Of a DNA stretch of 64,000 bases, positions 14,638-58,613 are shown piece by piece. The translations under genes and the position numbers were made by a program. How positions within the stretch are numbered: the first letter of the stretch is position 1; every line of letters begins with the position of its first letter. Below the pieces are notes generated by a model, which was not told where the DNA came from, did not search any database, and was given only the letters and a program-made list of their open reading frames with translations. The stretch is from Hoeflea sp. (GTDB lineage: Bacteria; Pseudomonadota; Alphaproteobacteria; Rhizobiales; Rhizobiaceae): contig NZ_NVXQ01000023.1 of the NCBI RefSeq assembly GCF_002733955.1, positions 62,001 to 126,000 of the forward strand. The letters are read 5' to 3'.

Positions 14638-15813
<1,176 letters not shown>

Positions 15814-15971: not shown

Positions 15972-16925
15972 CTACCAGAGATCGTAGCGCAGGCCGACGC
16001 GGACCTCATGGACATTGATGCCCTTTCGTTGCGAGATGGTGGAGCCGTCAAACTGCGCGTATCGGGCGTTTGGAGCAGAGGTGAACTGGTAACCCATGTC
16101 GAGCGACAGGTTCTTGGTCAGCTGATAGCCAACACCCGCATTCAAGGCGTAGGCAATACTCCACTGATCATCTTCATAGCTCAAAAGGGCGACATCAGCT
16201 GGATCGGTGTAGGAAGCCTGCCCGCTACAGACAAATGTGTTTGTGGTCTGCGACACACCGGCCACGCCCGTCGTTACCTGCGATCCTTCACAACGTGCGT
16301 TCGCGCTTGCGGTTTGCTTGGTATAGGCCACCCCTACCCCGCCGCCCACATAGGGTGTGAAACCGGCGATCGTGCCGAGATCAACATAGCCGTTCAGCAT
16401 ACCCAGATACATCGAATTCTTGATCGTGACCCCGCCGGCGCAATTTACGCTGTCAGCGGAACTTGTCGTGTTGACGGGGACCACGGCGACGCCTGCAACA
16501 TAGTTGGTGGTCGTGATCGTTCGCGTGCCGCCACAGCCACTGGTAAAGACACCGCTTTGGGCGAACGTCTTTTGCCCGAAGGTGCCGAGATTGAAATCCA
16601 TACGGAACAAGTCATTGAGATGATATCCGGCGCCTATGCTTGCCGTCATGTTCGAATAGTCGTTCTGGTTGGTCACCAGGCCAGTTGCCGCGAATGTCGG
16701 CAGGCCCTGAAGCGGATTTGAAGCGCCGACAACCGTGCTGCGGTATTTGGTGTCGACCTGGTACCCCAGGTCACCGCGCAGATACCAGCCCGACCCGACT
16801 TCCACCGTCTTTGTGACCGGCAATTCGCTGCCATAGAGGATCTGGTCCAAATCCGCAGCCTGAGTCGGCGCGACCAATCCGGTCAAAGCCGCAATGCAGG
16901 AGGTGACAGCAATTCGCATAGACAT
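15972..16925 (-). CDS. outer-membrane beta-barrel protein
   Basis: The 317-residue protein has a signal peptide (about 1-24, ending APTQA|ADL). The rest is an alternating beta pattern ending in VHEVRVGLRYDLW, with the terminal aromatic residue typical of BAM-inserted barrels. The GWYLRGDLGYQVDTKY and VGYQLTKNLSLDMGYQF segments match the OmpA-like/opacity porin group of Rhizobiales (Omp25/RopB relatives). The ATG at 16925 has an AAGGGAA ribosome-binding site; a second ATG lies two codons in. Extracellular loops are Cys/Thr/Ser-rich. A neighbouring gene encodes a second barrel of the same type, and a CtrA-type box lies 85 bp upstream. Confidence 0.88.
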   Translation of the reverse strand: MSMRIAVTSCIAALTGLVAPTQAADLDQILYGSELPVTKTVEVGSGWYLRGDLGYQVDTKYRSTVVGASNPLQGLPTFAATGLVTNQNDYSNMTASIGAGYHLNDLFRMDFNLGTFGQKTFAQSGVFTSGCGGTRTITTTNYVAGVAVVPVNTTSSADSVNCAGGVTIKNSMYLGMLNGYVDLGTIAGFTPYVGGGVGVAYTKQTASANARCEGSQVTTGVAGVSQTTNTFVCSGQASYTDPADVALLSYEDDQWSIAYALNAGVGYQLTKNLSLDMGYQFTSAPNARYAQFDGSTISQRKGINVHEVRVGLRYDLW

Positions 16926-17009
16926 GACCGAGTTCCCTTCGATAGATCCGACCTGCCTTCGCCCGATGGCGCACGCAGACCGTGTGAAGGTCACTATGAA
17001 CAGGGCTGG

Positions 17010-17024
17010 TTAAGTCACGGTTAA
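17010..17024 (-). promoter_or_regulatory. CtrA-type binding box upstream of outer-membrane protein gene
   Basis: TTAA-N7-TTAA is exact; read on the minus strand it is TTAACCgtgacTTAACC, a tandem TTAACC pair. It lies 85 bp upstream of the ATG at 16925. A CATAGT sequence 11 bp downstream of the box (16993-16998) could be the -10 element. A further GGTTAA lies just upstream (17034-17037). Confidence 0.65.
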
Positions 17025-17160: not shown

Positions 17161-18009
17161 CTATTTGTAGACCACAGGCATGATCGGGGCAGGCTCGACA
17201 TAGACTTCCTGTTCTGCACAGCCACCGAAACCGTAGCGAAGGCCGCCGCGCACTTCATGCGAGTTGATCGCCTTGTGGTAGCCCTGGTACCCGTTGCTGG
17301 TCAGGCTCTTGAACATGGCGCCGCCGGAGATATGACGATAGCGATAACCGACATCGGCCTTGACGTTGCAGGTTACATCCACCGACGCACCAGCCATCAG
17401 GGCGTAGGTAAAGCGCCAACCGGCCGCACCGCCATGGTTGAACGAAGGGTCGCACAGCGTCGGGTTGGCCGTCGAGCACGAGGTGTTGTTCAGATCATCC
17501 CACTTGACGCGGGTGCCACCAAGACCGCCACCGGCGTAGAAGGTGAAACGGCCCTTCTTGTAGAGATCGACATAGGCATTTGCCAGCAGGCTCAGACCCG
17601 AGACCGATGTGATGTCGGTAGAGGTACAGGCGGTTGCCACACCACAGCTGCCGATGGTCGAGCCGCGGAAGTTTGCCTTGGCGAAATAGTCCAGCGTTAC
17701 GTCGGTCCGCAGCTTGGAATTGATCTGGTAACCGACACCACCGCCGACGCTGTAGGAGTTGCGCAGTGACGCTGTTGCAAAGGGTGCGTAAGTGCCCAGT
17801 CCACCCTGGAAGAAATCGGCGCCCTTCATCTTGTTCCAGGAATATCCGACATCACCGCGGAGATACCAGCCACCAGCGGCGGAGACCGTCTGGACCGGCG
17901 CTTCATACACGGGCGCTTCAACATAAGGGGCGGGCAGCACATCAGCAGCACTTGCTGCACCTGCACCGGCAAGCAGCATGGCCGTACCGGCCAGAAGTAT
18001 CTTTCTCAT
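17161..18009 (-). CDS. outer-membrane beta-barrel protein, second copy
   Basis: The 282-residue protein has a clear signal peptide (MRKILLAGTAMLLAGAGAASA, cleavage near residue 21). The barrel domain has the same GGWYLRGDVGYSWNK and INSHEVRGGLRYGFGG landmarks as its neighbour at 15972, so the two are diverged paralogues. The tail continues for about 20 residues after the last strand (EVYVEPAPIMPVVYK). The ATG at 18009 has a TGGAG ribosome-binding site. Four to five cysteines in the loops could form disulfides. A terminator follows, and an exact CtrA-type box lies 88 bp upstream. Function is probably structural or porin-like; the ligand is unknown. Confidence 0.88.
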   Translation of the reverse strand: MRKILLAGTAMLLAGAGAASAADVLPAPYVEAPVYEAPVQTVSAAGGWYLRGDVGYSWNKMKGADFFQGGLGTYAPFATASLRNSYSVGGGVGYQINSKLRTDVTLDYFAKANFRGSTIGSCGVATACTSTDITSVSGLSLLANAYVDLYKKGRFTFYAGGGLGGTRVKWDDLNNTSCSTANPTLCDPSFNHGGAAGWRFTYALMAGASVDVTCNVKADVGYRYRHISGGAMFKSLTSNGYQGYHKAINSHEVRGGLRYGFGGCAEQEVYVEPAPIMPVVYK

Positions 18010-18096
18010 GACAGACTCCATCGTCGAGACATGCGCTGTCGCCGGCGTTGGTGACAACACGATTGTTGGTTCGGGATGGATAATGAAGCAGAAAAG

Positions 18097-18111
18097 TTAA
18101 AGCGTACTTAA
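18097..18111 (-). promoter_or_regulatory. CtrA-type binding box upstream of second outer-membrane protein gene
   Basis: TTAA-agcgtac-TTAA is an exact TTAA-N7-TTAA site, 88 bp upstream of the ATG at 18009. A CATTAT/TATCC stretch about 14 bp downstream of the box could be the -10. GANTC sequences, the CcrM methylation target of this class, occur nearby (gactc and gaatc around 18128-18138). The rest of the gap to 18343 shows no gene. Confidence 0.65.
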
Positions 18112-45019: not shown

Positions 45020-45177
45020 GTGCGATCCACGGCAACCGATGGATGTATTGATCCTGGGAACCTACAACGTAGGTGGGCGCCATATGTCCGGACCCACGGG
45101 TCCGGTCAGGGACAGCTCCCTTTGGATCAATTAAGGCCCCAGGGTTCGAGATCCTGTCGAGAGGCGCAGATCGCATC
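45020..45177 (-). ncRNA. ssrS: 6S RNA
   Basis: The minus-strand RNA folds into a long interrupted rod typical of 6S RNA, which mimics an open promoter and binds sigma-70 RNA polymerase. Outer pairing is GCGATC (5', 45169-45174) with GATCGC (3', 45022-45027). The inner closing stem is CCTGGG with CCCAGG. The distal arm contains GGACC-CGTG-GGTCC. GGCGCCCACCTAC-GTT-GTAGGTTC is the conserved 3' side of rhizobial 6S RNA as I remember it. It lies directly downstream of zapA, the conserved zapA-ssrS order. Ends are estimated to within about 10 nt. Confidence 0.8.
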
Positions 45178-45367
45178 CCTCATATAGGTCATCCCGGCTC
45201 CAACTCCAATGAGCAAATTGGAAATCATCGCCTTGATCCGCTCAATGGATCGGGACCGTCAAAAGACCGGTCTTCGCGCCCCCGATCAGCGCCCTGCGGC
45301 AGGCAAAGCAGATCTGAACAAAGCACTCTTGCGGTCTCGCACCGAAAGGAGACCCTGGCCCGGCCGA

Positions 45368-45730
45368 TCAGCTCCGTCCGGAGAGCTTGCCGGCGATCTG
45401 CTCGATCTTGTCGGTCACCTCCGACAGGGCCTCGGCCAGGTCATGATCGGTCTTGTCGACCTTGCTCAGCGCAGTGTCGCGGGTCTTTTTCAGGGTCTCG
45501 ACTTCGGCTTCCAGACCGCGCATGCGGCGCTGCAGCTCGTGCAGCTCGTCCATCACCATGATGCCGGCCATGACCGTGATCCTGAGGTCGCCAATCTCGC
45601 CGAACTGGCCCTTGAGATGACCGACGTAACGGTCGAACCGCCCGGCAAGCTCGCTCAGATGCTCTTCCTGGCCCTCTTCGCAGGCCATCCGATAGGTCTT
45701 TGAGTCAATGGTAACCGTTACCTGGGCCAT
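45368..45730 (-). CDS. zapA: cell division protein ZapA
   Basis: The 120-residue protein promotes FtsZ protofilament bundling at the division ring. The N-terminal beta domain (VTVTIDSKTYRMACEEGQEEHLSELAGRFD) is followed by a coiled coil (about 65-118) that mediates tetramerisation. It lies downstream of a DUF4164 coiled-coil gene and upstream of the 6S RNA, all on the minus strand. This matches the conserved zapA-ssrS arrangement. Confidence 0.95.
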   Translation of the reverse strand: MAQVTVTIDSKTYRMACEEGQEEHLSELAGRFDRYVGHLKGQFGEIGDLRITVMAGIMVMDELHELQRRMRGLEAEVETLKKTRDTALSKVDKTDHDLAEALSEVTDKIEQIAGKLSGRS

Positions 45731-45794
45731 TCAACACGTCCTGTTTTGCACGACCCCGGATGATCGAAGGCAAATGCGATTGATACTGACAGTC

Positions 45795-46067
45795 TCAGCG
45801 GTCGAGAACCGCCCTTATGGTTTCCATGGCCGTCACCAGCCTGCGGGAGACCTCCCGGTTGGCTTCTTCCAGGCGGTTGGCCCGGTCCTGCGACTGGTCG
45901 AGCTCGAGCGCCATGCGTGAGCGATCTTCAATCATTCGGCTGAGTTCAGCCGTCGCTTCGGTCGAACTGCGGCTCGTCTCGACCTGACGATCGACTTCGT
46001 TGTCGAGCTGGGTCAAAGCTTTTTTCAGCGCCTCAAGTGCGGATTGTGCTGTTTTTTCAACCGGCAT
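45795..46067 (-). CDS. DUF4164 small coiled-coil protein
   Basis: The 90-residue product is almost entirely heptad-patterned helix (ALEALKKALTQLDNEVDRQVE and MIEDRSRMALELDQSQDRANRLEEANREVSRRL) and matches DUF4164, a family restricted to Rhizobiales and encoded next to zapA. The ATG at 46067 has an AGGGAAG ribosome-binding site. A function in the divisome alongside ZapA is suggested by the neighbourhood only. It is divergent from tkt. Confidence 0.85.
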   Translation of the reverse strand: MPVEKTAQSALEALKKALTQLDNEVDRQVETSRSSTEATAELSRMIEDRSRMALELDQSQDRANRLEEANREVSRRLVTAMETIRAVLDR

Positions 46068-46217
46068 CGTCAGCTTCCCTGGATCTGAACTACAAGCCGA
46101 ATCGCTTGAATTCCGGATACTTGTGAGCGCGACTTTACGCATTAGCCGAACCGGGCGTCAACAAAACCGGATTTGCATCCCCAGACGTTTGCAGCCAAGC
46201 CATTTCCAAGGCATTTG

Positions 46218-46245
46218 TTGACTCCCGCCTAGCAACTGCTATGTG
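46218..46245 (+). promoter_or_regulatory. promoter candidate for tkt
   Basis: TTGACT (46218-46223) and TATGTG (46240-46245) are separated by 16 bp, 68 bp before the tkt ATG. Confidence 0.4.
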
Positions 46246-46312
46246 TGCGCGGCCTTCGATCCGGACTATATCCAGACCGGACCTGACATGAACGCGACCA
46301 GGCGGAACCATC

Positions 46313-48304
46313 ATGATTTCACGCGAAAAACACGACCGGATGGCAAATGCAATCCGGTTTCTGTCCATTGATGCTGTAGAGAAAGCCAAATCCGGGCATC
46401 CCGGCCTGCCAATGGGCGCAGCCGATATCGCCACGGTGCTGTTTTCGCGCTATCTGAGCTTCGATCCCAAGAAGCCGGACTGGCCCGATCGCGACCGCTT
46501 CGTGCTGTCCGCCGGCCACGGCTCGATGCTGATCTATTCGCTGCTCTATCTGCTCGGATATGACGACATCTCGCTCGACGACATCAAGAACTTCCGTCAG
46601 CTGGGCTCCCCCACTGCCGGTCACCCCGAATACGGCCACGCCGCAGGCATCGAGACCACCACTGGTCCGCTCGGCCAGGGCATCGGCAACGCCGTCGGCA
46701 TGGCCATCGCCGAGCGCAAGCTGGCCCAGGAATTCGGCTCCGACCTGGTCGAGCACTACACCTATGCGCTGGCAGGCGACGGCTGCCTGATGGAAGGCAT
46801 CAGCCAGGAAGCGATCTCGCTTGCTGGCCATCTCAAGCTCAACAAGCTGATCGTGTTCTGGGACAACAACTCGATCTCCATCGATGGTCCTGTATCGCTC
46901 ACCGATTCGACCGACCAGCTGGCCCGCTTCGCAGCCTCCGGCTGGAACACGCTCGACATCGACGGTCACGACCCCGACGCCATCGCCCAGGCCATCGAGA
47001 CGGCACAGAACTCCGACCGTCCGACCCTGATCGCCGCAAAGACCGTGATCGGCTTTGGTGCGCCCAACAAGGCCGGAACCAGCGGCGCCCACGGCTCACC
47101 GCTCGGCGACAAGGAAATCGCAGGCACCCGCAAGGCACTCGGCTGGGACGAGGAACCCTTCGTCGTGCCGTCCGACATTCTCGACGCCTGGCGCCTCGCG
47201 GGTCTGCGCTCGGTCAAGGACCGCAAGGCCTGGGAATCCCGTCTGGCCGAGACCGACAACGAGATCCGCATGACCTTCGAGCGCCGGATGAGCGGCCAGC
47301 TGCCGGGTGAACTCGAGCCGGCCATCACCGCCTACAAGAAGAAGCTGGCCGATGACCAGCCGACTGTTGCCACCCGCAAGGCCTCGGAAATGGCGCTCGA
47401 AGTCATCAATGGCGTCGTGCCGGAAACGCTTGGCGGCTCAGCCGACCTGACCGGGTCGAACAACACCCGCACCAGCCAGACCAAGGCAATCACGCCGGAC
47501 GATTTTTCCGGCCGCTACATCCATTACGGCATCCGTGAGCACGGCATGGCGGCAATGATGAACGGCATCGCGTTGCATGGCGGCCTGATCCCCTATTCCG
47601 GCGGCTTCCTGATTTTCTCGGATTACTGCCGTCCTTCGATCCGTCTTGCAGCCCTGATGGGCATCCGCGTCATTCATGTCCTGACCCATGATTCCATTGG
47701 TCTGGGTGAAGACGGACCGACCCACCAGCCGGTGGAACAGATGGCCGCGCTGCGCGCCATTCCCAATCTTCTGATGTTCCGGCCGGCCGACACGGTGGAA
47801 ACGGCGGAATGCTGGCAGATCGCGCTCGAACAGGGCAAGCGTCCGAGCGGCATCGCCCTGACACGTCAGAACCTGCCGACGGTTCGCACCGATTTCACCG
47901 AGGAAAATCTCTGCAGCTACGGCGCCTATGATCTGGTTTCGGCAAGCGATGCCGAGGTCACGATCTTTGCCTCCGGCTCGGAAATCGAGATTGCCCTTGA
48001 AGCGCGCGGGATGCTTGAGGCGAATGGTCACAGCACCCGTGTGGTCTCCGTGCCCAGCTTCGAGCTGTTCGAAGAACAAAGCGCGGAGTATAAAAAGGCC
48101 ATCATCGGAGATTCCAGGGTCAAGATCGCCATTGAGGCGGGCATCCGCCAGGGATGGGATCGCTTCATCGGCGCTGACGGCCTGTTCATCGGCATGACCG
48201 GGTTTGGCGCGTCCGGACCTTACAAGGAACTCTACGAGCACTTCGGAATTACTGCCAAGGCTGCGGTCGAAGCGGCCGAAGCCAGCTTACATGACGAAGC
48301 CTGA
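46313..48304 (+). CDS. tkt: transketolase
   Basis: The 663-residue thiamine-diphosphate enzyme moves two-carbon units between sugar phosphates in the pentose phosphate pathway. The TPP/metal motif is [35 protein letters not shown]. The substrate-binding HGSPLGD and the catalytic glutamate region [20 protein letters not shown] are present. It heads a tkt-gap-(antiporter)-pgk-fba block of central carbon genes. The gap gene follows after 47 bp. Confidence 0.97.
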
Positions 48305-48351
48305 TCTCTGGCAGAGACAGGCGCAATCGGACCCAGGACGGAGGGAATAGC

Positions 48352-49362
48352 ATGAAGACCAGGATTGCCATTAACGGATTTGGCCGCATCGGCCGCAATG
48401 TTGTGCGCGCCATTTACGAATCCGGTCGCACCGACATCGACATCGTTGCCATCAACGATCTCGGTCCGGTCGAGACCAACGCCCATCTGTTGCGTTGGGA
48501 CTCGGTGCACGGCAAGTTCCCGAAGACCGTTGAAGTCGACGGCGACACGATCCGCATCGAAGGCGGCGATTCCTTCAAGGTATTCGCCGAACGCGACCCG
48601 AAGAACCTGCCCTGGGCCGATCTCGGCATCGACATCGTGATGGAATGCACCGGCATCTTCACCGCGCGCGACAAGGCTGCCATTCACCTGGAAGCCGGCG
48701 CCAAGCGGGTTCTCGTGTCGGCACCTTCGGCCGGTGCGGACAAGACCATCGTTTATGGCGTCAACACCGATGTGCTGACCAAGGATGACCTGGTGGTCTC
48801 CAACGCATCGTGCACCACCAACTGCCTGGCCCCCGTCGCCTATGTCCTCAACAATGCCATCGGCATTGAAAAGGGCATGATGACGACGATCCACTCCTAC
48901 ACCGGTGACCAGCCGACGCTCGACACCATGCACAAGGATCTTTACCGCGCCCGTGCAGCCGCCATGTCGATGATCCCGACCTCGACCGGTGCCGCCAAGG
49001 CTGTCGGCCTGGTCCTGCCCGAACTCAACGGCAAGCTCGACGGCATGTCGATCCGCGTTCCGACCCCGAACGTCTCGGTCGTTGACCTGAAGTTCATTGC
49101 CAAGCGCGAGACTTCGGCTGAAGAGATCAACACGGCCATCCGCGACGCCGCAAACGGCCCGCTGAAGGGCGTCCTCGGCTTCACCGACGAGCCGAACGTG
49201 TCGATCGACTTCAACCACAACCCGCATTCCTCGGTCTTCCACATGGACCAGACCAAGGTCATGGAAGGCACCCTGTGCTCGATCCTGACCTGGTACGACA
49301 ATGAATGGGGCTTCTCCAACCGCATGGGCGACACCGCCGTGGCGATGGCCAAGCTCATCTAG
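48352..49362 (+). CDS. gap: glyceraldehyde-3-phosphate dehydrogenase, type I
   Basis: The 336-residue enzyme has NAD-binding INGFGRIGR (7-15), the nucleophile C154 in [13 protein letters not shown] and the catalytic His in TIHSYTGDQ. Asp36 (INDLG) at the end of the second strand favours NAD+ over NADP+, so it should run glycolytically and possibly both ways. It is co-directional with tkt. A long hairpin follows the stop codon by 53 bp. Confidence 0.97.
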
Positions 49363-49414
49363 TCACCAACCGCCTGCTGGCTTGACCGCTGGCGTGTGAA
49401 AGACTGTGCAATTC

Positions 49415-49450
49415 AGTAACGCCACCGTTCGAAAGAGCGGTGGCGTTACT
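49415..49450 (+). terminator. long GNRA-capped hairpin after gap (terminator without clear T-tract)
   Basis: AGTAACGCCACCG pairs perfectly with CGGTGGCGTTACT, and TTC/GAG extends the stem to 16 bp with a GAAA tetraloop. No T-run follows, so it may be a rho-independent terminator variant, a 3'-end stabiliser or an mRNA processing element. The rest of the gap (49451-49643) shows no gene. Confidence 0.55.
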
Positions 49451-49643
49451 GATTCCGGCGCCGACAATGCACCATGACTGCCTTTGTCTGCCGCGCCGCC
49501 CGTGACGGTCCAATTGTCACCTTGATTTGAGGAAAGTGTCGCTTTGCGGCCTCTCGATCATTGATCCGATTGCAGCCACCTCCCATACTTGCAGCCTGAG
49601 CATTTCGGCTGTTTTTCAGGACGATCCGGACAAGGGACGACGG

Positions 49644-51443
49644 TTGGACACATTCTACCTCGTGATATTGGCTTCAATGTCACTCATTCTCATTGCAGCC
49701 TTCTCCAGCCTGTTGGCGGAGCGCTTTGGCGCCCCCTTGCTGCTGCTCTTTCTGCTCATCGGACTGGTTGCCGGTGTCGACGGCCTAGGCATCGATTTTT
49801 CCAACAATTCCGCCGCCTATATGCTGGGCTCGATCGCGCTCGCCATCATCCTGTTTGATTCCGGCTTCGGCACGTCGCTGCAGTCTTTCAGGCAAGCCGC
49901 TGTCCCGGCGCTGACGCTTGCCACCGTCGGCGTGCTGTTGACCGCAATCCTGTTTGGCGTCGCCGCCCGCTTTCTGCTCGGTTTCACCTGGCTGGAAGGG
50001 TTTCTGCTGGGATCGATTGTCGCCTCCACCGATGCCGCAGCCGTGTTCTTCCTGTTGCGCACCGGTGGCATCAATATTCGCGACAAGGTCCGTTCGACGC
50101 TGGAAGTCGAATCCGGCACCAACGATCCGATGGCGATCTTTCTCACCGTGGCCCTGGTCGGCATCGTGGCCAGTGGCGAGGACCTGGACAGTGCCGGCCT
50201 CGAGCTCTTGCTGCTGTTCGTCAAGCAGATCGGTCTCGGCCTGCTGATGGGCCTTATCGGCGGCGTTCTCATTGTCCTGATCATGCGCCGGGTTCCCGTC
50301 GAGCGCGGCCTCGCCCCGATCTTCGTCCTCGCCCTGGCGCTGCTGGTCTTCGCCTACACCTCTGCCATCGGCGGCAGCGGCTTTCTCGCGGTCTATGTCG
50401 CCGGCATCTATGCCGGCAACAAGAAGATCCAGGCCAAGACGTCGATCAACCGCTTTCAGGAGGGCATGACCTGGCTGGCGCAGATCATCATGTTCCTCGT
50501 GCTGGGCCTGCTGGCAACACCGTCGCAATTCCCGCAGATCGTGCTCCCCGCCGTCGGCCTCGCCATCTTTCTGGTCTTCATTGCCCGACCGCTGGCGGTC
50601 TGGCTTTGCCTGCTGCCCTTCGACCTGACCCAGCGCGAAACCGGCTTTGTCGCCTGGGTCGGCTTGCGTGGTGCAGTCTCGATCCTGCTCGCCATCCTGC
50701 CCATTCTCGGCAATCTCGAAAACGGCCAGCTCTATTTCAACACCACCTTCATCGTGGTGATGGTATCGCTCGCCATCCAGGGCTGGACGGTCAAGCCGAT
50801 GGCCAAGCGGCTCGGTCTGATCATCCCGCCGCAGATCGGAGCCATCGACAAGCTCGAACTCGACCTGCCCGGCACCGCCAATCATGAATTGCTGGCCTAC
50901 CGTGTGGTCGCCGACAGCCCGGTGCTGCGCGGCGAGCGCATTCCGCGCTGGGCACGCCCCTCGCTGGTCATTCGCGACGGCAAGTCGATGCGCTATCAAT
51001 ATGCCGGACGGCTGCGCGAAAACGATCAGGTCTATCTGTTCATCGCGCCCGGATTTTCGCGCCTGCTCGACCGGCTGTTCGCCTCCAAGCTGGCCGTCGG
51101 CGAGAATGACAACGAGTTCTTCGGCACCTTCACCATCGACCCGTCCAGAAGCGGCGAGGAGCTCGACAACGCCTATGGGCCCGGCCTGCTCAGCGAGGCG
51201 GAGAAATCATTGACCATCGCCGAATTGATGGAGCAGCGCCTGGGCGGCAAGCCTGACTATGCAGACCGGGTCAAGATTGGAAGAATCGTGCTGATCGTTC
51301 GTCAGACCGACGAGCATGGCCTCATCAGGATGGTCGGCATATCGCTTGAACCGGTTGCGCCGGCAACGAGGTTGCCGCTGTTCCTCAACCTGCGCGAGAT
51401 CATTCAGATGATCCGCGATTTCACCCGCGCGCGGCGAAAATGA
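49644..51443 (+). CDS. K+/H+ antiporter of the CPA1 NhaP2 type
   Basis: The ~599-residue protein has about 12-13 membrane helices in the first 400 residues, with the Asp-containing core STDAAAVFFLLRTGG and ESGTNDPMAIFLT typical of CPA1 antiporters. Helix 12 is followed by a cytoplasmic TrkA-C-like domain (about 420-490) and a C-terminal CorC-like segment. This layout identifies NhaP2/CvrA, which expels K+ in exchange for H+. I chose the TTG at 49644, preceded by AAGGGA, because the family starts MDTFYLVIL; the frame extends to 49527 without signal. It interrupts the glycolytic gene block. Confidence 0.88.
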   Translation: MDTFYLVILASMSLILIAAFSSLLAERFGAPLLLLFLLIGLVAGVDGLGIDFSNNSAAYMLGSIALAIILFDSGFGTSLQSFRQAAVPALTLATVGVLLTAILFGVAARFLLGFTWLEGFLLGSIVASTDAAAVFFLLRTGGINIRDKVRSTLEVESGTNDPMAIFLTVALVGIVASGEDLDSAGLELLLLFVKQIGLGLLMGLIGGVLIVLIMRRVPVERGLAPIFVLALALLVFAYTSAIGGSGFLAVYVAGIYAGNKKIQAKTSINRFQEGMTWLAQIIMFLVLGLLATPSQFPQIVLPAVGLAIFLVFIARPLAVWLCLLPFDLTQRETGFVAWVGLRGAVSILLAILPILGNLENGQLYFNTTFIVVMVSLAIQGWTVKPMAKRLGLIIPPQIGAIDKLELDLPGTANHELLAYRVVADSPVLRGERIPRWARPSLVIRDGKSMRYQYAGRLRENDQVYLFIAPGFSRLLDRLFASKLAVGENDNEFFGTFTIDPSRSGEELDNAYGPGLLSEAEKSLTIAELMEQRLGGKPDYADRVKIGRIVLIVRQTDEHGLIRMVGISLEPVAPATRLPLFLNLREIIQMIRDFTRARRK

Positions 51444-51556
51444 GTGCTGAAAGCGCCCGCCACCGGTTCCCCTCTTCGCCCCGCCTCGTTACAACAGCGC
51501 TACCATCACCGCGTCGGCAAATCCGCGCGACATCAACTTGACGAACGGAACATCCC

Positions 51557-52753
51557 ATGACCTCTTTCAAGACACTTGATGATCTCACAGACCTTTCCGG
51601 CAAGCGTGTCCTGCTGCGCGTCGATCTGAACGTGCCCGTCAAGGATGGCAAGGTGACCGACACCACCCGCGTCGAGCGTGTAGCCCCCACGATCATGGAA
51701 CTGTCGGGCAAGGGCGCGCGGGTGATCCTGCTCGCGCATTTCGGCCGCCCGAAGGGCCAGGCTGTCCCGTCAATGTCGCTCGACCCGATTGCCGGCATCG
51801 TCGAAAGCGTGCTCGATCACCGCGTTCATTTCGCCGCCGACTGCATTGGCGAAACCGCGCAGAAGGCGGTTGATGCGATGGTCAATGGCGACATTCTGCT
51901 TCTGGAAAACACCCGGTTTCATGCCGGCGAGGAAAAGAATGATCCCGACTTCGCCAAGGCGCTGGCCAGCAACGGCGATATCTTCGTCAATGACGCGTTC
52001 TCGGCTGCGCACCGTGCCCACGCCTCCACCGAGGGGCTGGCGCATCTGCTGCCGGCCTATGCCGGACGCACCATGCAGGCAGAGCTGGTGGCGCTCGAAA
52101 AGGGCCTCGGCAATCCGGCCCGGCCGGTGGTCGCCATTGTCGGCGGAGCCAAGGTCTCGACGAAGATCGACCTGCTCAAGAACCTGGTCAAGAAGGTCGA
52201 TGCGCTGGTGATCGGCGGCGGCATGGCCAACACCTTCCTCGCTGCCCGCGGCATCGATGTCGGCAAATCGCTTTGCGAGCACGATCTGGCCGAAACCGCC
52301 AAAGCAATCGAAGCCGAGGCGCTTGCATCGGGATGCACCATCGTCTTGCCGGTAGACGGTGTCGTAGCGCGCGAATTCAAGGCCGGCGCCGACAACGAGA
52401 CCGTTGCTGTTTCTGCCATCCCTGCCGATGCCATGATGCTCGATGTCGGACCTGAAACCATCGAAGACATCAACGCGTGGATCACCAAGGCCGATACCCT
52501 TGTCTGGAACGGCCCGCTCGGCGCCTTTGAAATCCCGCCCTTTGACGCGGCGACGGTCTCTGCAGCCCAGCACGCCGCCCGGCGCACGGGCGAAGGCCTG
52601 CTGGTCTCCGTGGCCGGCGGCGGAGACACTGTCTCTGCGCTCAATCACGCAGGCGTTGCCGAAGACTTCAGCTACGTGTCCACCGCCGGCGGCGCGTTCC
52701 TGGAGTGGATGGAAGGCAAGCCCCTGCCCGGCGTCGACGTTCTCAAGCGTTAA
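51557..52753 (+). CDS. pgk: phosphoglycerate kinase
   Basis: The 398-residue enzyme transfers phosphate between 1,3-bisphosphoglycerate and ADP. Conserved segments include [16 protein letters not shown], the substrate-binding [19 protein letters not shown] and the nucleotide-binding [15 protein letters not shown]. The length is normal. It lies 113 bp after the antiporter gene and 174 bp before fba on the same strand. Confidence 0.97.
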
Positions 52754-52816
52754 AACCGAGGGCAAATTTCTCTGGTACCGCCCGCCGTTAAGCATGGCTG
52801 AAAAAACACCTGTATT

Positions 52817-52849
52817 TTCAATCGATTGAAAGATTTTCAATCGATTCAA
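52817..52849 (+). promoter_or_regulatory. tandem palindromic operator upstream of fba
   Basis: TTCAATCGATTGAA (52817-52830) is a perfect 14-bp palindrome. TTCAATCGATTCAA (52836-52849) is a second copy with one mismatch, 19 bp centre to centre, on nearly the same DNA face. They lie 79-111 bp before the fba ATG. The TCAATCGATTGA core has the CG-centred look of LacI-family operators; the regulator is unknown. Confidence 0.6.
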
Positions 52850-52927
52850 CCCACCTATTGCCTATTTTCTCCGCCTTGCCGCATCTGTTAAAGCAGCCGG
52901 CAAGACACAGAGAACGGGGATTATGGC

Positions 52928-53821
52928 ATGATGAACGAAACCATGGCGCGACAGATGGCGGACAAGGACGGCTTTATCGCCGCGCTCGACCAGTCCGGCG
53001 GCTCCACGCCCAAGGCGCTGGCCCTTTATGGCGTTGCCGAAGATGCCTATTCCGGCGAAGAGGAAATGTTCGCGGCGATCCACGCCATGCGCACCCGCAT
53101 CATCAAGTCGCCTGCCTTTACCGGCGACAAGGTGATCGGCGCAATCCTGTTCGAGCGCACCATGGACGGTGAAATCGACGGCATCCCCACCGCCGACTAT
53201 CTCTGGGACAAGCGCGGCATCGTCCCCTTCCTGAAAGTCGACAAGGGCTTGCAGGCAGAAGAAAACGGCGTGCAGCTGATGAAGCCGATGGGCGATCTCG
53301 ATGCACTGCTCGAGCGCGCCGTCACCAAGAACATCTTCGGCACCAAGATGCGCTCGGTCATCAATGCCGCCAGCAAGGACGGCATCGAAGCCATCGTCGC
53401 GCAGCAGTTCGAAATCGGCACGCAAATTCTCGGCCATGACCTGATGCCGATTATCGAGCCGGAAGTGAACATCAAGATCGCCGACAAGGCCGACGCGGAA
53501 CAGCTGTTGCTGGATGCAATCAAGCGCCATCTCGAAACCCTTCCTGCCGGAAAACAGGTGATGCTGAAACTGTCACTGCCGACCGTCGCCAATCTCTACA
53601 AGCCGCTGGTTGACGACCCCCGTGTCATGCGCGTCGTTGCCCTGTCGGGCGGCTATTCACGTGATGAGGCCAACCGGCTGCTCGGCGCGAATACCGGTGT
53701 GATCGCATCCTTCTCGCGCGCGCTGACCGAGGGACTGTCTTACGGCCAGAGCGATGCGGATTTCGATGCGACGCTTGCCACGACAATCGACAGCATTTTC
53801 GAGGCCTCGCGCGCAGGCTGA
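52928..53821 (+). CDS. fba: fructose-bisphosphate aldolase, class I
   Basis: The 297-residue enzyme cleaves fructose-1,6-bisphosphate. It is the short bacterial class I (Schiff-base) type: GFIAALDQSGGSTPKALALYG near the start, AILFERTMDGEIDG and YLWDKRGIVPFLKVDKGLQ, with lysines in the latter region and in VMLKLSLPT as Schiff-base candidates. No class II zinc motif is present. The start could also be the ATG of the fifth or sixth codon region. A terminator follows, and a tandem palindrome lies upstream. Confidence 0.93.
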   Translation: MMNETMARQMADKDGFIAALDQSGGSTPKALALYGVAEDAYSGEEEMFAAIHAMRTRIIKSPAFTGDKVIGAILFERTMDGEIDGIPTADYLWDKRGIVPFLKVDKGLQAEENGVQLMKPMGDLDALLERAVTKNIFGTKMRSVINAASKDGIEAIVAQQFEIGTQILGHDLMPIIEPEVNIKIADKADAEQLLLDAIKRHLETLPAGKQVMLKLSLPTVANLYKPLVDDPRVMRVVALSGGYSRDEANRLLGANTGVIASFSRALTEGLSYGQSDADFDATLATTIDSIFEASRAG

Positions 53822-53848
53822 GCAGGATCAAGCTGTTGAAACTGCATC

Positions 53849-53880
53849 AACCCGCCGTGGCACCACGGCGGGTTTCGCTT
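53849..53880 (+). terminator. terminator of fba
   Basis: AACCCGCCGTG and CACGGCGGGTT form an 11-bp stem around a GCAC loop (53849-53874), followed by TCGCTTT. Confidence 0.85.
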
Positions 53881-53939
53881 TATCGTGGGCTGGGTGCACA
53901 CCCCACCCACGACCCGGACACGTAGAGACGATAGCTGCC

Positions 53940-54689
53940 ATGAACAACACACTTGCAGGCCTGATCAGCTGGATGCTGGTGCCGATCGCACTGTTCAAGG
54001 GATTGGGCGTGCGCAGGATCGTGCCGCGCCTGCCGCCGCCCCGGGGCCGGCCAAAGGGCCAGGTCGGAGAAGGCGAACCCGAGGCCCGCTTGCTGGTCAT
54101 CGGCGATTCGTCAGCCGCCGGTGTCGGTGCCGACAGGATTGAAGACACGCTCGGACCCCAGCTCGCCGCACGCATCAACCAGGCCACCGGCAAACCGGTC
54201 GCCTGGCGCAATGCCGGCGCCAATTCGGCCATTGCCGCCCAGGTGCGCGATTTCGTGGTTCCGCATATCGAGGAGCGCGATTTCACCCATGTGATCATCA
54301 CCGTGGGCACCAACGACGCCAAGAACTTCAAGACCCGCTCGGCCTTCAAGAAGGGCTTCGGCGGACTGCTCTATGCCGTCCACGCCCGCTGGCCCGATGC
54401 CGCGGTCTTCTGGTCACCTGTCGTGGCCTTGCCGGATGTGCCCGCGCTGCCATCCTCACTCGGCTACATTCTCGGCCTGCGCGCGCAGATCATCAACGCC
54501 ATGGGTGTCCAGCTGTGCCGCGAGCGCTATGCCACGGCAATCGATCCATTGCCGGTCGAAGGGCCGGAGGGCTTTGCCATTGACGGATTTCACGCCAATG
54601 CGGCCGGTTACCACCACTGGGCCCAGCATGTCGCCCGGTTCATTCCGGACGCAGCACCAGCGCCATCATCATCGAGAAAATCAGAATAA
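53940..54689 (+). CDS. SGNH/GDSL hydrolase with N-terminal membrane anchor
   Basis: The 249-residue protein begins with a hydrophobic helix (about 5-21) and a basic Pro-rich linker. The SGNH domain follows: nucleophile S57 in VIGDSSAAGVG, block II Gly/Asn (RNAGANSA), block III N125 in VGTNDAKN, and a C-terminal DGFHANAAGYHHW carrying the catalytic Asp and His. Such enzymes are esterases or lipases acting on envelope or polysaccharide acyl groups; the substrate is not predictable. The ATG at 53940 is chosen because the anchor starts there. Its last 50 bp overlap a small antisense gene. Confidence 0.88.
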   Translation: MNNTLAGLISWMLVPIALFKGLGVRRIVPRLPPPRGRPKGQVGEGEPEARLLVIGDSSAAGVGADRIEDTLGPQLAARINQATGKPVAWRNAGANSAIAAQVRDFVVPHIEERDFTHVIITVGTNDAKNFKTRSAFKKGFGGLLYAVHARWPDAAVFWSPVVALPDVPALPSSLGYILGLRAQIINAMGVQLCRERYATAIDPLPVEGPEGFAIDGFHANAAGYHHWAQHVARFIPDAAPAPSSSRKSE

Positions 54690-54801
54690 GCGCGATTTTC
54701 CAGACATCGCCGCGTCGTTTCAGCCCGGGAAGACCGAATGGTTTGATCAGATGCAGGACCATGGCCACCAGAACCAGAACGAGCAGTATTTTTGTCGTCA
54801 T
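54640..54801 (-). CDS. 53-residue two-helix membrane mini-protein
   Basis: Direct translation of the minus strand from the ATG at 54801 gives a 53-residue protein. The first hydrophobic helix (KILLVLVLVAMVLHLI) is followed by a basic loop (KPFGLPGLKRRGDVWK) and a second helix (IALILIFSMMMALVL), ending RPE. AAGGCG lies six bases upstream of the ATG as a ribosome-binding site. The Arg/Lys loop predicts a hairpin with both ends outside. It overlaps the 3' end of the convergent SGNH hydrolase gene by 50 bp. I do not recognise a characterised family. Confidence 0.7.
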   Translation of the reverse strand: MTTKILLVLVLVAMVLHLIKPFGLPGLKRRGDVWKIALILIFSMMMALVLRPE

Positions 54802-54929
54802 CCATCACGCCTTTTTTGCCGTTGGCCACATACCTGTCACGATCCTCGTCAATCAGCTAGGCTTAATGAGGCTCGGGCCGTGATTCCCGGCTGCCTCGGC
54901 CCTTGAAACTCCTTACACACCGGTTTCCC

Positions 54930-56168
54930 ATGCGCAGCAACCTCCTCCCCGTCTTGTCATTGCTCTTGGGCACCGCATTCCTGCTCGCAGGCAATGGCCT
55001 TCATGGCCTATTGCTGCCGATGCGCGGCTCGGCCGAAGGCTTTTCCCCGACCTCGCTCGGTCTTCTGGGAACAGCCTGGGCCACGGGCTTCGTGCTCGGC
55101 TGCATTTTCTCACAACGGCTGGTCAGGCGCATCGGCCATGTCCGCGCCTTCTCGGCATTTTCGGCCACCATCGCCATCATCGCGCTGTTGACCGGCTTGC
55201 TGGTCGATCCGATAAGCTGGATCCTGCTGCGCGTCGTCACCGGGTTTTCGCTCGCCGCAGCTTTCATGATCATCGAAAGCTGGCTCAACGAGCGCGCCAC
55301 CAACGAGACCCGCGGTCTCATCTTCTCGCTCTACATGACCGTCACCTATGTTGCCATCGTTGCCGGACAGATGAGCATCGCCGCCGGTGATGTCACCCAA
55401 TCGACCTTCTTCATCATTGCCGGCATTCTTTATTGCCTGGCGCTGCTGCCGACGGCGGTTTCGACGGCTTCCAGCCCTGCGCCGCTGAAGGAGGTCAAGC
55501 TTGACCTCAAGATGATTTACCGCAATTCGCCAGTCTCCTTCGTGGCGATGCTGCTGGTCGGCATTGCCAATGGCGCCTTCGGCACGCTCGCTCCGGTCTT
55601 CGGCGCCGATGTCGGCCTGACCACCTTCACGATTGCGACCATGATGTCGATCACCATCTTCTCCGGCGCCGTCATGCAATTGCCGGCCGGCCGCATGTCC
55701 GACCGCATGGACCGGCGTTATGTTCTTGCGGGGCTGGCCACCATTGCCGGGCTGTCGGGACTGGCCATCACCATCATCAAACCCTCAGGCATCACGGTTC
55801 TCTACGGGCTGATCTCCCTGTATGGCGCGATGTCCTACACGCTCTATTCGATCATCGTCGCCCACGCCAACGACTACGCCGACAGCGACCAGTTCGTCAC
55901 CGTATCCGGCGGCCTTCTGCTTCTCTATGGCATCGGCACGATCATCGGCCCGCTGGTGGGCGGCATCACTATGGGCTACAGCCCCTATCTCCTGTTCGCG
56001 GTCACCGCCATCGCTCACCTGGGCGTCGCGGGCTATGCGTTGATACGATCCCGCATGCGGGCCGCCATTCCCACCGAGGACCGCGAGAACTTCGCCTCCA
56101 TCCCGTCGGCCCGGGCAGCAACACCGGAATCGATCAATCTCGATCCACGCGCCACGCCGGAGAATTGA
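54930..56168 (+). CDS. MFS transporter (YcaD-like)
   Basis: The 412-residue protein has about 12 hydrophobic helices. The opening LSLLLGTAFLLAGNGLHGLLLPMRGSAEGF is typical of the YcaD-type MFS subgroup, and RMSDRMDRRYVL is the loop between helices 8 and 9. The substrate is unknown. I chose the ATG at 54930; a TTG at 54903 is an alternative and neither has a strong ribosome-binding site. The C-terminal ~35 residues are soluble. It is divergent from the small membrane protein gene and is followed by a terminator. Confidence 0.88.
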   Translation: MRSNLLPVLSLLLGTAFLLAGNGLHGLLLPMRGSAEGFSPTSLGLLGTAWATGFVLGCIFSQRLVRRIGHVRAFSAFSATIAIIALLTGLLVDPISWILLRVVTGFSLAAAFMIIESWLNERATNETRGLIFSLYMTVTYVAIVAGQMSIAAGDVTQSTFFIIAGILYCLALLPTAVSTASSPAPLKEVKLDLKMIYRNSPVSFVAMLLVGIANGAFGTLAPVFGADVGLTTFTIATMMSITIFSGAVMQLPAGRMSDRMDRRYVLAGLATIAGLSGLAITIIKPSGITVLYGLISLYGAMSYTLYSIIVAHANDYADSDQFVTVSGGLLLLYGIGTIIGPLVGGITMGYSPYLLFAVTAIAHLGVAGYALIRSRMRAAIPTEDRENFASIPSARAATPESINLDPRATPEN

Positions 56169-56228
56169 CCGCTTTCGCGCTCAACGGCTCCCCCCGTGTG
56201 CGCCACAGGCATCCTGACGGCATGCAAC

Positions 56229-56262
56229 AACGCCCGCCTCCTGTTGGAAGCGGGCGTTTTCG
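56229..56262 (+). terminator. terminator of the MFS gene
   Basis: AACGCCCGC and GCGGGCGTT form a 9-bp stem (with partial pairing further in) followed by TTTTCGT. Confidence 0.8.
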
Positions 56263-56310
56263 TACAGATCAGCAATGTTCCTGCCTCGGCCAGGCAGCAA
56301 CACAGGCCGT

Positions 56311-57291
56311 TCAGCTCATGTCGAGCACGATCTTGCCGATGTGATCACCGTCTTCCATCCGCCGGTGGGCGGCCGATGCCTGGTCCAGCGGGAAGATTGA
56401 ATCCATTACCGGCAGCACCTTGCGCTCGCTCAGCAAAGGCCAGACATGCTGCTGCAGCTCCTGGGCAATCCCGGCCTTGAAGGCAATGTCCCGCGCCCTG
56501 AGCGTCGACCCCGTATGGGTCAACCGCTTCATCATGAGAAGCGAAAAATCGACCTCGGCTTTCTGGCCTCTCAAGAACGCGATCTGGACAATCCGGCCTT
56601 CGACCGCCGCTGCCTTGTAGTTGCGGCTGATGTAATCGCCGCCCACCATGTCGAGGATCAGGTCGACGCCCTTGCCGTCGGTCGCCTCCTTGACCGCTTC
56701 GACAAAATCCGTTTCCCGGTAATTGATCGCCAGATCCGCCCCCAGATCGCGCATGGCCGCGCATTTTTCCTCCGAGCCTGCAGTCGCAAGCACCCGCGCG
56801 CCGAACGCCTTGGCCAGCTGGATCGCGGTGGTGCCGATACCAGACGTTCCGCCATGCACCAGAAATGTCTCTCCGGATTTGAGACCGCCACGCTGGAACA
56901 CATTGTGCCAGACAGTGAAGAACGTCTCGGGGATTGCCGCAGCCTCGGTCATCGTCAGGGAAGCCGGCGCCGGCAGCGCATTGGTCTCGTCGACCGTGCA
57001 GTATTCCGCGTAGCCGCCTCCCGGCACCAGCGCACAGACCTGGTCGCCCGGCTTGAAACCCTGCACATTTGCACCGACCGCTTCGACCTCGCCGGCAATT
57101 TCAAGTCCCGGAATATCCGACGCACCTGGCGGCGGTGGATAGGCCCCCTGCCTTTGAAGGCAATCCGGCCGGTTGACGCCGGCAGCCGCCACCTTGATCA
57201 GCAGCTCGGTGGCGCCTGGAACAGGCTTGTCGCGTGTGGTGGGTGTTAAAACCTCAGGACCGCCGGGCTGACGAATTTCAATACTGCGCAT
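56311..57291 (-). CDS. NAD(P)H quinone oxidoreductase, zinc-free MDR family (PIG3-like)
   Basis: The 326-residue protein belongs to the medium-chain dehydrogenase superfamily. The substrate segment AAAGVNRPDCLQRQGAYPPPPGASDIPGLEIAGEV matches the TP53I3/PIG3-type quinone oxidoreductases, which lack the catalytic zinc. The NADPH-binding GGTSGIGTTAIQLAK is present. It probably reduces quinones or unsaturated carbonyls by one electron or hydride. The ATG at 57291 has a GGAG ribosome-binding site. It is monocistronic. Confidence 0.92.
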   Translation of the reverse strand: MRSIEIRQPGGPEVLTPTTRDKPVPGATELLIKVAAAGVNRPDCLQRQGAYPPPPGASDIPGLEIAGEVEAVGANVQGFKPGDQVCALVPGGGYAEYCTVDETNALPAPASLTMTEAAAIPETFFTVWHNVFQRGGLKSGETFLVHGGTSGIGTTAIQLAKAFGARVLATAGSEEKCAAMRDLGADLAINYRETDFVEAVKEATDGKGVDLILDMVGGDYISRNYKAAAVEGRIVQIAFLRGQKAEVDFSLLMMKRLTHTGSTLRARDIAFKAGIAQELQQHVWPLLSERKVLPVMDSIFPLDQASAAHRRMEDGDHIGKIVLDMS

Positions 57292-57444
57292 CTGATCATT
57301 CTCCTCGTGACGCTTTTCCACAACTTAGGGACAGGCTAGGATTACGGCAATGCCGGTTGACCACTTGCATCATTACGAAACAGCCCGGGCCGCGCTGATT
57401 GGCAGGGCGCGCTGTCAGCACTGTGCTAAAAGGAAAGCAAGACC

Positions 57445-57636
57445 ATGTTTGCAGATGATGATCTCCCCAAACCGAAAAAGCTCCACGAGATCGGTTGTGA
57501 TCTGACGTTCCTTTCTGCTGCCGAGATCGAGGAACGAATCGCCGTGTTGCAGGAAGAGATCGAGCGCCTGGAAGCAGACAAGCTATCCAAGACCACCAGC
57601 CGCACCGCTGCGGAGCAGTTTTTCAAGTCGAAATAA
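57445..57636 (+). CDS. DUF1192 small coiled-coil protein
   Basis: The 63-residue protein matches DUF1192: MFADDDLPKPKKLHEIGCDLTFLSAAEIEERIAVLQEEIERLEADKLSK, a short acidic/basic head and a leucine-heptad helix. The family is found only in alphaproteobacteria and has no known function. AAAGGAAAG precedes the ATG. It lies upstream of rcdA on the same strand, separated by 458 bp that contain two CtrA-type boxes and a terminator. Confidence 0.88.
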   Translation: MFADDDLPKPKKLHEIGCDLTFLSAAEIEERIAVLQEEIERLEADKLSKTTSRTAAEQFFKSK

Positions 57637-57675
57637 AGCAACCAAGGCAAGCACTTACGAAATTAGACTTTGCTG

Positions 57676-57690
57676 TTAAGCTTCAGTTAA
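57676..57690 (+). promoter_or_regulatory. CtrA-type binding box before a candidate small RNA
   Basis: TTAA-gcttcag-TTAA is an exact TTAA-N7-TTAA site. A TTACTAA sequence (57704-57710) lies at the spacing expected for a -10 element when the box covers the -35, which would place a transcription start near 57715. Confidence 0.6.
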
Positions 57691-57714
57691 GCTTTACAAG
57701 TCATTACTAAAGAT

Positions 57715-57810
57715 ATCCAGAATTTCTGGATTTGACAGTCCGGCCCACGGTCAGACTGTTGGACGCCTCCCTGTTAAACTCTTGAGAGCCGCTGATGCGG
57801 CTCTTTTTTT
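57715..57810 (+). ncRNA. candidate small RNA (~95 nt) between the DUF1192 gene and rcdA
   Basis: The interval reads as three stem-loops. First is ATCCAGAA-T-TTCTGGAT (57715-57731), a perfect palindrome at the predicted transcription start. Second is an ACAGTC/GACTGT stem. Third is a strong terminator, AGAGCCGC-TGAT-GCGGCTCT with TTTTTT (57785-57810). The unpaired stretch before the terminator contains GGACGCCTCCCTGTT, whose CCTCCC could pair with Shine-Dalgarno sequences. No open frame of note is present. The alternative is that this is only the 3' UTR and terminator of the DUF1192 gene. Confidence 0.5.
57785..57810 (+). terminator. rho-independent terminator upstream of rcdA
   Basis: An 8-bp perfect stem with a TGAT loop is followed by at least six T residues. 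It ends either the DUF1192 transcript or the candidate small RNA, and isolates rcdA from upstream transcription. Confidence 0.93.
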
Positions 57811-57968
57811 GAGCTGGCTCCTGTCCGGACGCGGGCCCTGTGCTATATCTTGTTCACGCAAGTGCCCTTGGAGGCAGGCGTCAGCGACCTGACTGACCTG
57901 AGTTGTTTTCGCATCCGCAGCCGATCTGTGCAGCGCGCGACACCAGCTGTTTCACCAGGTTTTTGACG

Positions 57969-57983
57969 TTAACCCTTTCTTAA
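57969..57983 (+). promoter_or_regulatory. CtrA-type binding box upstream of rcdA
   Basis: TTAA-ccctttc-TTAA is an exact TTAA-N7-TTAA site, 112 bp before the rcdA ATG. In Caulobacter rcdA belongs to the CtrA regulon, so a CtrA site here is expected biologically. Confidence 0.7.
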
Positions 57984-58094: not shown

Positions 58095-58613
58095 ATGTCA
58101 GAAACAAGCCTCAACCCGATCAATCTCGCGGACCGCATGGCCAACTCGACCCAGTTCAAGGCACTCTATGCTGAAGGAATGGGGCTGGTTGAGGAAACCG
58201 CGAACTATCTTGATGGTCCGGGCCGGGCTGCATCGAAAGGTCTGCCGCGTCTGGCCGGCGTGCTTTACGCAGCGGAATCGATGCGCCTGACGACCCGCCT
58301 GATGCAGATGGCGTCCTGGTTGCTGCTGCAGCGCGCCGTCAACAACGGCGAAATGAACCGCGATCAGGTTCTCGCCGAGAAGAACAAGGTCCGCCTCGAC
58401 AGCTTCAATTGTGATCGCAGCGCCCAGGGCTGGAATGATCTGCCGGAAGAATTCAAGGACCTCGTCGAACGCTCGCTGCGCATTCAGAACCGCGTGGCGC
58501 TGCTTGATCGCGAGATCTACCGCCCCGAGGAAGCAGCTGCCCTGAAGCCGGACAACGAAAACTCGGTCCAGGCCCAGCAGCATCTGCTGCAGACAGTGTT
58601 CAGCAAGCGCTGA
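58095..58613 (+). CDS. rcdA: regulator of CtrA degradation RcdA (DUF1465)
   Basis: The 172-residue helical protein matches the DUF1465/RcdA family. In Caulobacter RcdA is a ClpXP adaptor that, with CpdR and PopA, delivers the cell-cycle regulator CtrA and other substrates for destruction. Recognisable segments include ALYAEGMGLVEETANYLDGPGR, AESMRLTTRLMQMASWLLLQRAVNNGEM and the C-terminal disordered region after about 145. It is monocistronic, has an exact CtrA-type box upstream and is followed by a strong terminator. This suggests a feedback loop in which CtrA drives its own removal. Confidence 0.92.
   Translation: MSETSLNPINLADRMANSTQFKALYAEGMGLVEETANYLDGPGRAASKGLPRLAGVLYAAESMRLTTRLMQMASWLLLQRAVNNGEMNRDQVLAEKNKVRLDSFNCDRSAQGWNDLPEEFKDLVERSLRIQNRVALLDREIYRPEEAAALKPDNENSVQAQQHLLQTVFSKR

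Follow-up and report, generated by a model that had tools for sequence, protein, structure and literature searches.

A small RNA (sRNA) of the BjrC1505/SmelC671 family lies between the genes for a DUF1192 protein and RcdA in the 64,000 nucleotides of Hoeflea sp. DNA that we analyzed (hereafter the window). This sRNA is an ordinary, well-conserved member of a known, sparsely studied family, and the unexpected, testable part is its conserved CtrA box: over much of the order a CtrA-like box precedes the sRNA start, which suggests, as far as sequence comparison reaches, a cell-cycle-timed regulator. The sRNA family was known already, whereas the predicted CtrA link of its promoter is new.

All elements of the locus are on the + strand. 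The DUF1192 gene (57445-57636; PF06698, 73.3 bits) is followed by an exact TTAA-N7-TTAA box (TTAAGCTTCAGTTAA, 57676-57690), a predicted CtrA site spanning roughly -38 to -24 with respect to the presumed sRNA start, and then, 12 nt past the box, by the -10-like element ATTACT (57703-57708), which overlaps TTACTAA (57704-57710). The sRNA, located with RF02356 and with our own model R1, extends over about 97 nt (57714-57810, its 5' end being deduced) and consists of hairpin 1 (57715-57731), hairpin 2 (57734-57760), the anti-Shine-Dalgarno-like CCTCCC (57766-57771) within CCTCCCTG (57766-57773), which is the presumed mRNA-pairing region, and an intrinsic terminator (57784-57810; stem 57784-57805, T-run to 57810). 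A second exact TTAA-N7-TTAA box (57969-57983) stands before rcdA (DUF1465; 58095-58613; PF07323, 193.5 bits), whose product shares 95% identity with RcdA of Hoeflea alexandrii and 91% with those of two Hoeflea MAGs. The sequence-only reading from which we started had named the box, TTACTAA, the hairpins, CCTCCC and the terminator, and each is where it had been placed; the Pfam matches to DUF1192 and DUF1465 (RcdA) confirm the position beside rcdA as well. Elsewhere in the window, a serC leader (RF00517, 15813-15864, minus strand, 72.9 bits) lies directly before the minus-strand gene 14638-15813.

With cmscan, the full-length RF02356 (BjrC1505) model (positions 1-140) matched 57669-57810 at 64.2 bits against a cut-off of 50, and no other Rfam family exceeded its cut-off at the sRNA locus. 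This match and the covarying hairpins described below uphold the earlier reading of the interval as an sRNA gene, but the sRNA is not new, as it is already named RF02356 and SmelC671/sm84. In the Rfam alignment the window box occupies positions 8-22 of the model, with the RNA presumed to start at position 46, and the model's 5' pairs, located in the promoter part, are for the most part non-standard in the window sequence. This suggests that the first ~45 positions of RF02356 are promoter DNA, box included. Three Sinorhizobium/Shinella members score 27.2-31.7 bits, under the RF02356 cut-off of 50, and the suggestion is that they do so because the model holds promoter DNA. R1, an RNA-only model made from the 70 RNA parts of our alignment A2 with the promoter excluded, gives the same three members 57.7-59.5 bits, two of the three being in its training set. 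It scores 76.4 bits at 57714-57810 of the window, also a training sequence, and 51.6-59.8 bits at five loci outside the training set (L202, L210, L240, L241 and L242); the Sphingomonas locus L162 gave no R1 match.

At E <=0.001, RF02356 has matches in 166 of the 199 order genomes (139 above the cut-off) and in 25 of 240 genomes sampled over the class, own order included (12 above the cut-off), and it was found in 0 of 14 control genomes in the order survey and in the class survey. R1 has matches in 69 of 289 genomes of the class. Some genomes hold extra family copies, possibly paralogues or decaying copies: L138 and L139 are second copies in G334 and G263, the former without the box and the latter with one mismatch in it, and G001 and G210 also have more than one match.

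By gene order, motif and length, we infer that SmelC671/sm84 of S. meliloti (ReC71 of R. etli) is the counterpart of the window sRNA and that BjrC1505 and SmelC671 are one family. Our comparison used S. meliloti strains other than 1021, and the identity with the 1021 transcript 2986421-2986520 is therefore presumed. According to PMC2573895, SmelC671 is sm84 and lies between the co-oriented SMc03988 and SMc03989. The window gene order around the sRNA is that around this interval, compared via S. meliloti Ak57, in which DUF1192, DUF1465 and rpmE follow each other as in the window. Ahead of DUF1465, Ak57 has the box TTAACCGCAAATTAA, followed by hairpins, UUUUUCUCCCUGUUUUACC and a terminator, and its sRNA scores 27.2 bits with RF02356, below the cut-off, and 57.7 bits with R1, of which it is a training row. 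The predicted S. meliloti RNA has 100 nt, as has the published one. The motif CUCCCUGU, described between the variable hairpins and the terminator in PMC3927594, is at 57767-57774 in the window. In both species a 6S RNA is encoded on the opposite strand 12-14 kb upstream, in common order and orientation: that of the window (RF00013, 45020-45175, minus strand, 79.8 bits) is 12.5 kb from the sRNA (45175 to 57714), and the distance is 12.8 kb in Ak57 and 14.2 kb in 1021 by coordinates published in PMC2873474. The two RNAs differ in the sequence of hairpin 2 and in that Hoeflea has GACGCCUCCCUGUUAAAC where S. meliloti has UUUUUCUCCCUGUUUUACC. Expression of SmelC671/sm84 is reported from Northern blot, where it has about 80 nt, from microarrays (PMC2573895) and from RNA-seq (PMC2573895, PMC2873474). 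Record CP090106.1 (L158/L390), a 3.7-Mb S. meliloti "plasmid pSymB" that carries ctrA, rcdA, tkt, gap and rpmE, looks like a mislabelled chromosome.

The RNA folds better than expected by composition: 57709-57812 gave a z-score of -4.78, and 0 of 200 shuffles were as good. Alignment A2 comprises 70 sequences hand-picked from 88 stretches; the 18 omitted were seven from the order, among them L148 with its incorrect 3' end, seven from the class and four named loci, a choice that may flatter the pairing figures. In its structure 91.0% of cells pair, vs 32.3-47.5% when the structure is slid, changes on both sides occur in 18 of 20 pairs, and 0 of 500 shuffles of A2 reach any of the five measures used. 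Hairpin 1 has both-side changes in 6/6 counted pairs and 95.9% of its cells paired; hairpin 2 has such changes in 7/7 counted pairs, with 74.1% (outer) and 84.7% (inner) of cells paired, and takes another register in ten Rhizobium/Sinorhizobium-type rows. In the terminator stem 99.0% of cells are paired. RNAalifold recovered hairpin 1 and the terminator on A2 and did not recover hairpin 2. On these comparative data the sRNA hairpins are real: the compensatory changes for which the sequence-only reading had proposed to search the stems are many, and the motif that it had asked to see elsewhere is kept far outside the strain. An extra small hairpin presenting CCUCCC (UUGAC...GUUAA) was rejected, for although 93.9% of its cells pair, it shows 0 both-side changes and shuffles equal it.

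In the C-rich motif, TCC is invariant in 70/70 A2 sequences, and a CTCCCTG-type motif is present at 80 of the 82 named loci examined, so the proposed anti-Shine-Dalgarno-like motif stands, CUCCCUG being widely conserved. The claim that CCTCCC is single-stranded held in part. It is unpaired in the centroid fold of 57709-57812, but in the fold of 57714-57810 the letters C-U-C-C-C-U-G-U have unpaired values of 0.29, 0.91, 0.89, 0.88, 0.28, 0.24, 0.20 and 0.21; pairing between GACAG and CUGUU makes the motif partly paired here. The first five letters of the motif lie in a loop in two other Hoeflea sequences (unpaired 0.93-1.0), and all eight letters are unpaired in S. meliloti (0.97-1.0). The median of the mean unpaired value of the motif is 0.97 at 80 named loci (over 0.7 in 48) and 0.68 at 154 unnamed loci (over 0.7 in 55).

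Exact TTAA-N7-TTAA boxes occur four times in the window, against a mean of 0.01 in 100 shuffles. In the 4.86-Mb genome overall there are 36, or roughly one every 135 kb, beside 29 matches to the reversed control pattern; genome-wide, the exact box is rare rather than strongly enriched. Two of the window boxes (17010-17024 and 18097-18111) are just upstream of the minus-strand genes 15972-16994 and 17161-18060, respectively, whose products we take to resemble outer-membrane beta-barrel proteins.

We examined the conservation of the sRNA box in sets of loci chosen in different ways, with expected counts from shuffles that serve as guides, not probabilities, the related sequences being non-independent. 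The first set, 80 named loci, was picked by the RcdA protein only, thus avoiding the box-bearing Rfam model; L224 (contig edge), L161 (Methylobacterium) and L162 (Sphingomonas) had been excluded in advance, and the lack of CTCCCTG removed L202 and L210, both found by R1. A box with at most one mismatch stands upstream of the RNA at 77 of these 80 loci (8.8 expected), and an exact one at 58 (0.6 expected). From the start of the box to CTCCCTG there are 90-98 nt at 75 of these 77 loci with a box, a near-fixed spacing, and the half-site letters are kept in 70-77 of the 77 rows, vs 26-48 for the commonest letter at the first six spacer positions. The second set was the best 30 loci for R1, 3 of them from the window's order and at least 5 of the genomes having given an R1 training sequence; here a box with no more than one mismatch is seen at 24 loci (2.9 expected) and an exact one at 10 (0.2 expected), and in 20 of the 24 it starts 38-43 nt before the RNA. 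Counts in the two Rfam-selected sets are biased because the model that found the loci contains the box: it is present with at most one mismatch at 123 of 132 order loci (13.7 expected), exactly at 53 (1.0 expected), and at 22 of the 23 class loci with the motif, L022 and L024 lacking the latter. ATTACT at the same offset (at most one mismatch) is common, not universal: among loci with a box, it is seen at 40 of the 77 named ones and at 29 of the 123 from the order. The TTAA-N7-TTAA box, noticed originally in one sequence, is thus a conserved promoter element (77/80 and 24/30 loci in the first two sets).

Starting from the family membership, the covarying hairpins and the box conserved at near-fixed spacing, all of which are observed, we infer CtrA binding and activation, cell-cycle timing and mRNA pairing. 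The sRNA of ~97 nt would be transcribed from its own promoter, the -35 region of which is overlapped by the CtrA box. From this site, roughly -38 to -24 relative to the presumed start, phosphorylated CtrA would help RNA polymerase and probably activate the sRNA, whose level would then go up before division, while CtrA is active. Predicted to form two hairpins and an intrinsic terminator, the transcript would offer CUCCCUG, which most likely pairs with purine-rich GGGAG-type ribosome-binding sites of a set of mRNAs and would lower their translation. To this whole explanation, a CtrA-activated, cell-cycle-timed sRNA pairing with ribosome-binding sites of mRNAs, we assign a probability of roughly 0.6. 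Weighing against it are two genomes with exact boxes and a best CtrA match of only 37%, and box-less genomes with CtrA, which are considered below. Further points against it are the second exact box before rcdA as another possible source of the ChIP signal, the low genome-wide enrichment of exact boxes (36 vs 29), the sigma70-type promoter assigned to sm84, the partial pairing of the motif in the window fold and the negative target tests on the ctrA, gcrA and carD leaders.

The box might also serve the opposite purpose, with CtrA repressing the sRNA and the RNA peaking when CtrA is low. A box at about -38 to -24 could block the polymerase, and Valverde et al. assigned sm84 a sigma70-type promoter by prediction (PMC2573895). 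However, ATTACT is far from the consensus and is found at the expected offset in part of the loci, as for an activated promoter, and the table of the review PMC7143759 gives no sigma-factor motif for SmelC671. We consider repression unlikely, albeit the strongest of the alternatives.

Slightly less probable again is that the upstream box belongs to rcdA, CtrA driving a long leader in which the hairpins and terminator act as an attenuator. An RcdA gene does lie downstream of the RNA on the same strand at 122 of 132 order loci (10 of 25 class loci), and agrobacterial rcdA is described in PMC10469942 as having multiple start sites, with its CtrA site lying farther upstream than that of Caulobacter; one of these start sites might be that of the sRNA. 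Yet at 82/82 named loci an exact box lies no more than 190 nt from the start of rcdA itself, the distance between the RNA and the RcdA frame varies widely between loci, and S. meliloti sm84 was detected as a short RNA (PMC2573895). Moreover, RNA and box persist where no adjacent RcdA is seen, at 9/10 order and 12/13 class loci with the motif, although these loci are Rfam-selected and thus biased, and for two from the class the sequence stops within 165 nt after the RNA. The published S. meliloti data touch the same point: in the ChIP-seq results given in PMC4433202, CtrA was at the rcdA promoter region, and rcdA expression was unchanged on CtrA depletion. The CtrA-bound site near S. meliloti rcdA may serve the sRNA, explaining a ChIP signal without an effect on rcdA; a second exact box stands before rcdA, about 174 nt from the sRNA box in S. 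meliloti, and the published text therefore does not show to which of the two the signal belongs. In the start-site study that assigned rcdA a CtrA motif, the search covered the upstream regions of protein-coding genes only (PMC3616915).

A regulator other than CtrA could read the conserved box, which we consider improbable. Two genomes with exact boxes, G210 and G113, have best CtrA matches of just 37%. Against this, TTAA-N7-TTAA is the published CtrA motif, that of S. meliloti being given as TAA-N7-TTAAC in PMC3616915, and CtrA was found at E <1e-60 in all 28 order genomes or records searched. Moreover, of the six genomes without the box among the best 30 R1 loci, five carry the RNA together with the more divergent CtrAs, 61-70% identical to the query: G162, G456 and G033, which belong to one genus, and G138 and G013. 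The sixth, G440, has a box with two mismatches and a CtrA 85% identical to the query, which speaks against the CtrA link. Last, it is very improbable that the RNA lacks its own promoter and is cut from the 3' end of the DUF1192 transcript, for while DUF1192 is upstream on the same strand at 93 of 132 order loci (15 of 25 class loci) and the terminator scan of the window shows no + strand terminator between the DUF1192 stop and the RNA, a promoter-like block is conserved between the two and DUF1192 is unrecognised at 39 of the 132 order loci that carry the RNA.

In the open-access main texts searched, we met no paper joining this sRNA to CtrA. PMC3927594 and PMC2873474 name SmelC671, and CtrA is absent from their main text; PMC7143759 names both SmelC671 and CtrA, and the passages covered do not join them.

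Potential targets were sought in 11 genomes or records with the pattern AACAGGGAG-N3-13-ATG, AACAGGGAG being the complement of the motif. The pattern gave 3-14 rows per genome, 85 in total, and among the 30 rows inspected, four genes recurred in two different genomes; we take these to resemble carD, tatA, an msrP-type reductase and a 3-hydroxyisobutyrate dehydrogenase. AACAGGGAG sits just before carD-like genes, e.g. at L275, L273 and L277. A carD search gave a match in 29 of 30 genomes or records, and AACAGGGAG was found in the carD leaders of 5/9 Rhizobiaceae, the S. meliloti leader not among them, and of 0/20 others (start not found in two of the 20), which rules out carD as a family-wide target; before carD, AACAGGGAG is possibly merely a shared ribosome-binding site. 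By duplex energies, the motif region was no more complementary than expected to the leaders of carD (mean z-score -0.11; 25 of 29 with start and sRNA locus), ctrA (-0.02; 28/28) or gcrA (0.07; 20 of 28 with start found), in what is a weak, energy-only test.

Two other rhizobial sRNAs, EcpR1 (SmelC291) and GspR (SmelC775), act on cell-cycle regulators, but they have other loci and motifs and are stress- or stationary phase-induced, as described in PMC4414408 and PMC5928217. EcpR1, which the sequence-only reading had raised as a possible relative, lies downstream of divK-pleD and has the loop motif UCCGCCGCAUCU (PMC4414408). This motif is absent from 57669-57810, where the neighbours are DUF1192 and DUF1465 and only RF02356 passes its Rfam cut-off. 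Locus, motif and Rfam thus rule out an identity with EcpR1 or GspR, and kinship with EcpR1 found no support. A possible functional parallel is Caulobacter CcnA, described in PMC8959179 as an ncRNA whose loop is C-rich and whose promoter has a predicted CtrA site. CcnA differs in lying at the replication origin and in pairing CCCC with GGGG in the ctrA and gcrA leaders; the window sRNA has another locus and CUCCCUG, lacks any run of CCCC in 57714-57810, and showed no excess complementarity to the leaders of ctrA or gcrA in the weak, energy-only test. By analogy, the two RNAs possibly work alike.

In summary, we give about even odds to a broader reading in which this is an ancestral CtrA-activated sRNA, the rhizobial functional counterpart of CcnA and a post-transcriptional arm of the CtrA circuit, which would account for the ChIP signal near rcdA. 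Most of the order's sampled genomes keep the RNA, as do parts of the class, and it sits at the locus of the CtrA-degradation adaptor. If CtrA does drive the sRNA, the puzzling CtrA ChIP signal would have a possible explanation, and a long-catalogued sRNA would become a cell-cycle sRNA in 166 of the 199 sampled genomes of the order.
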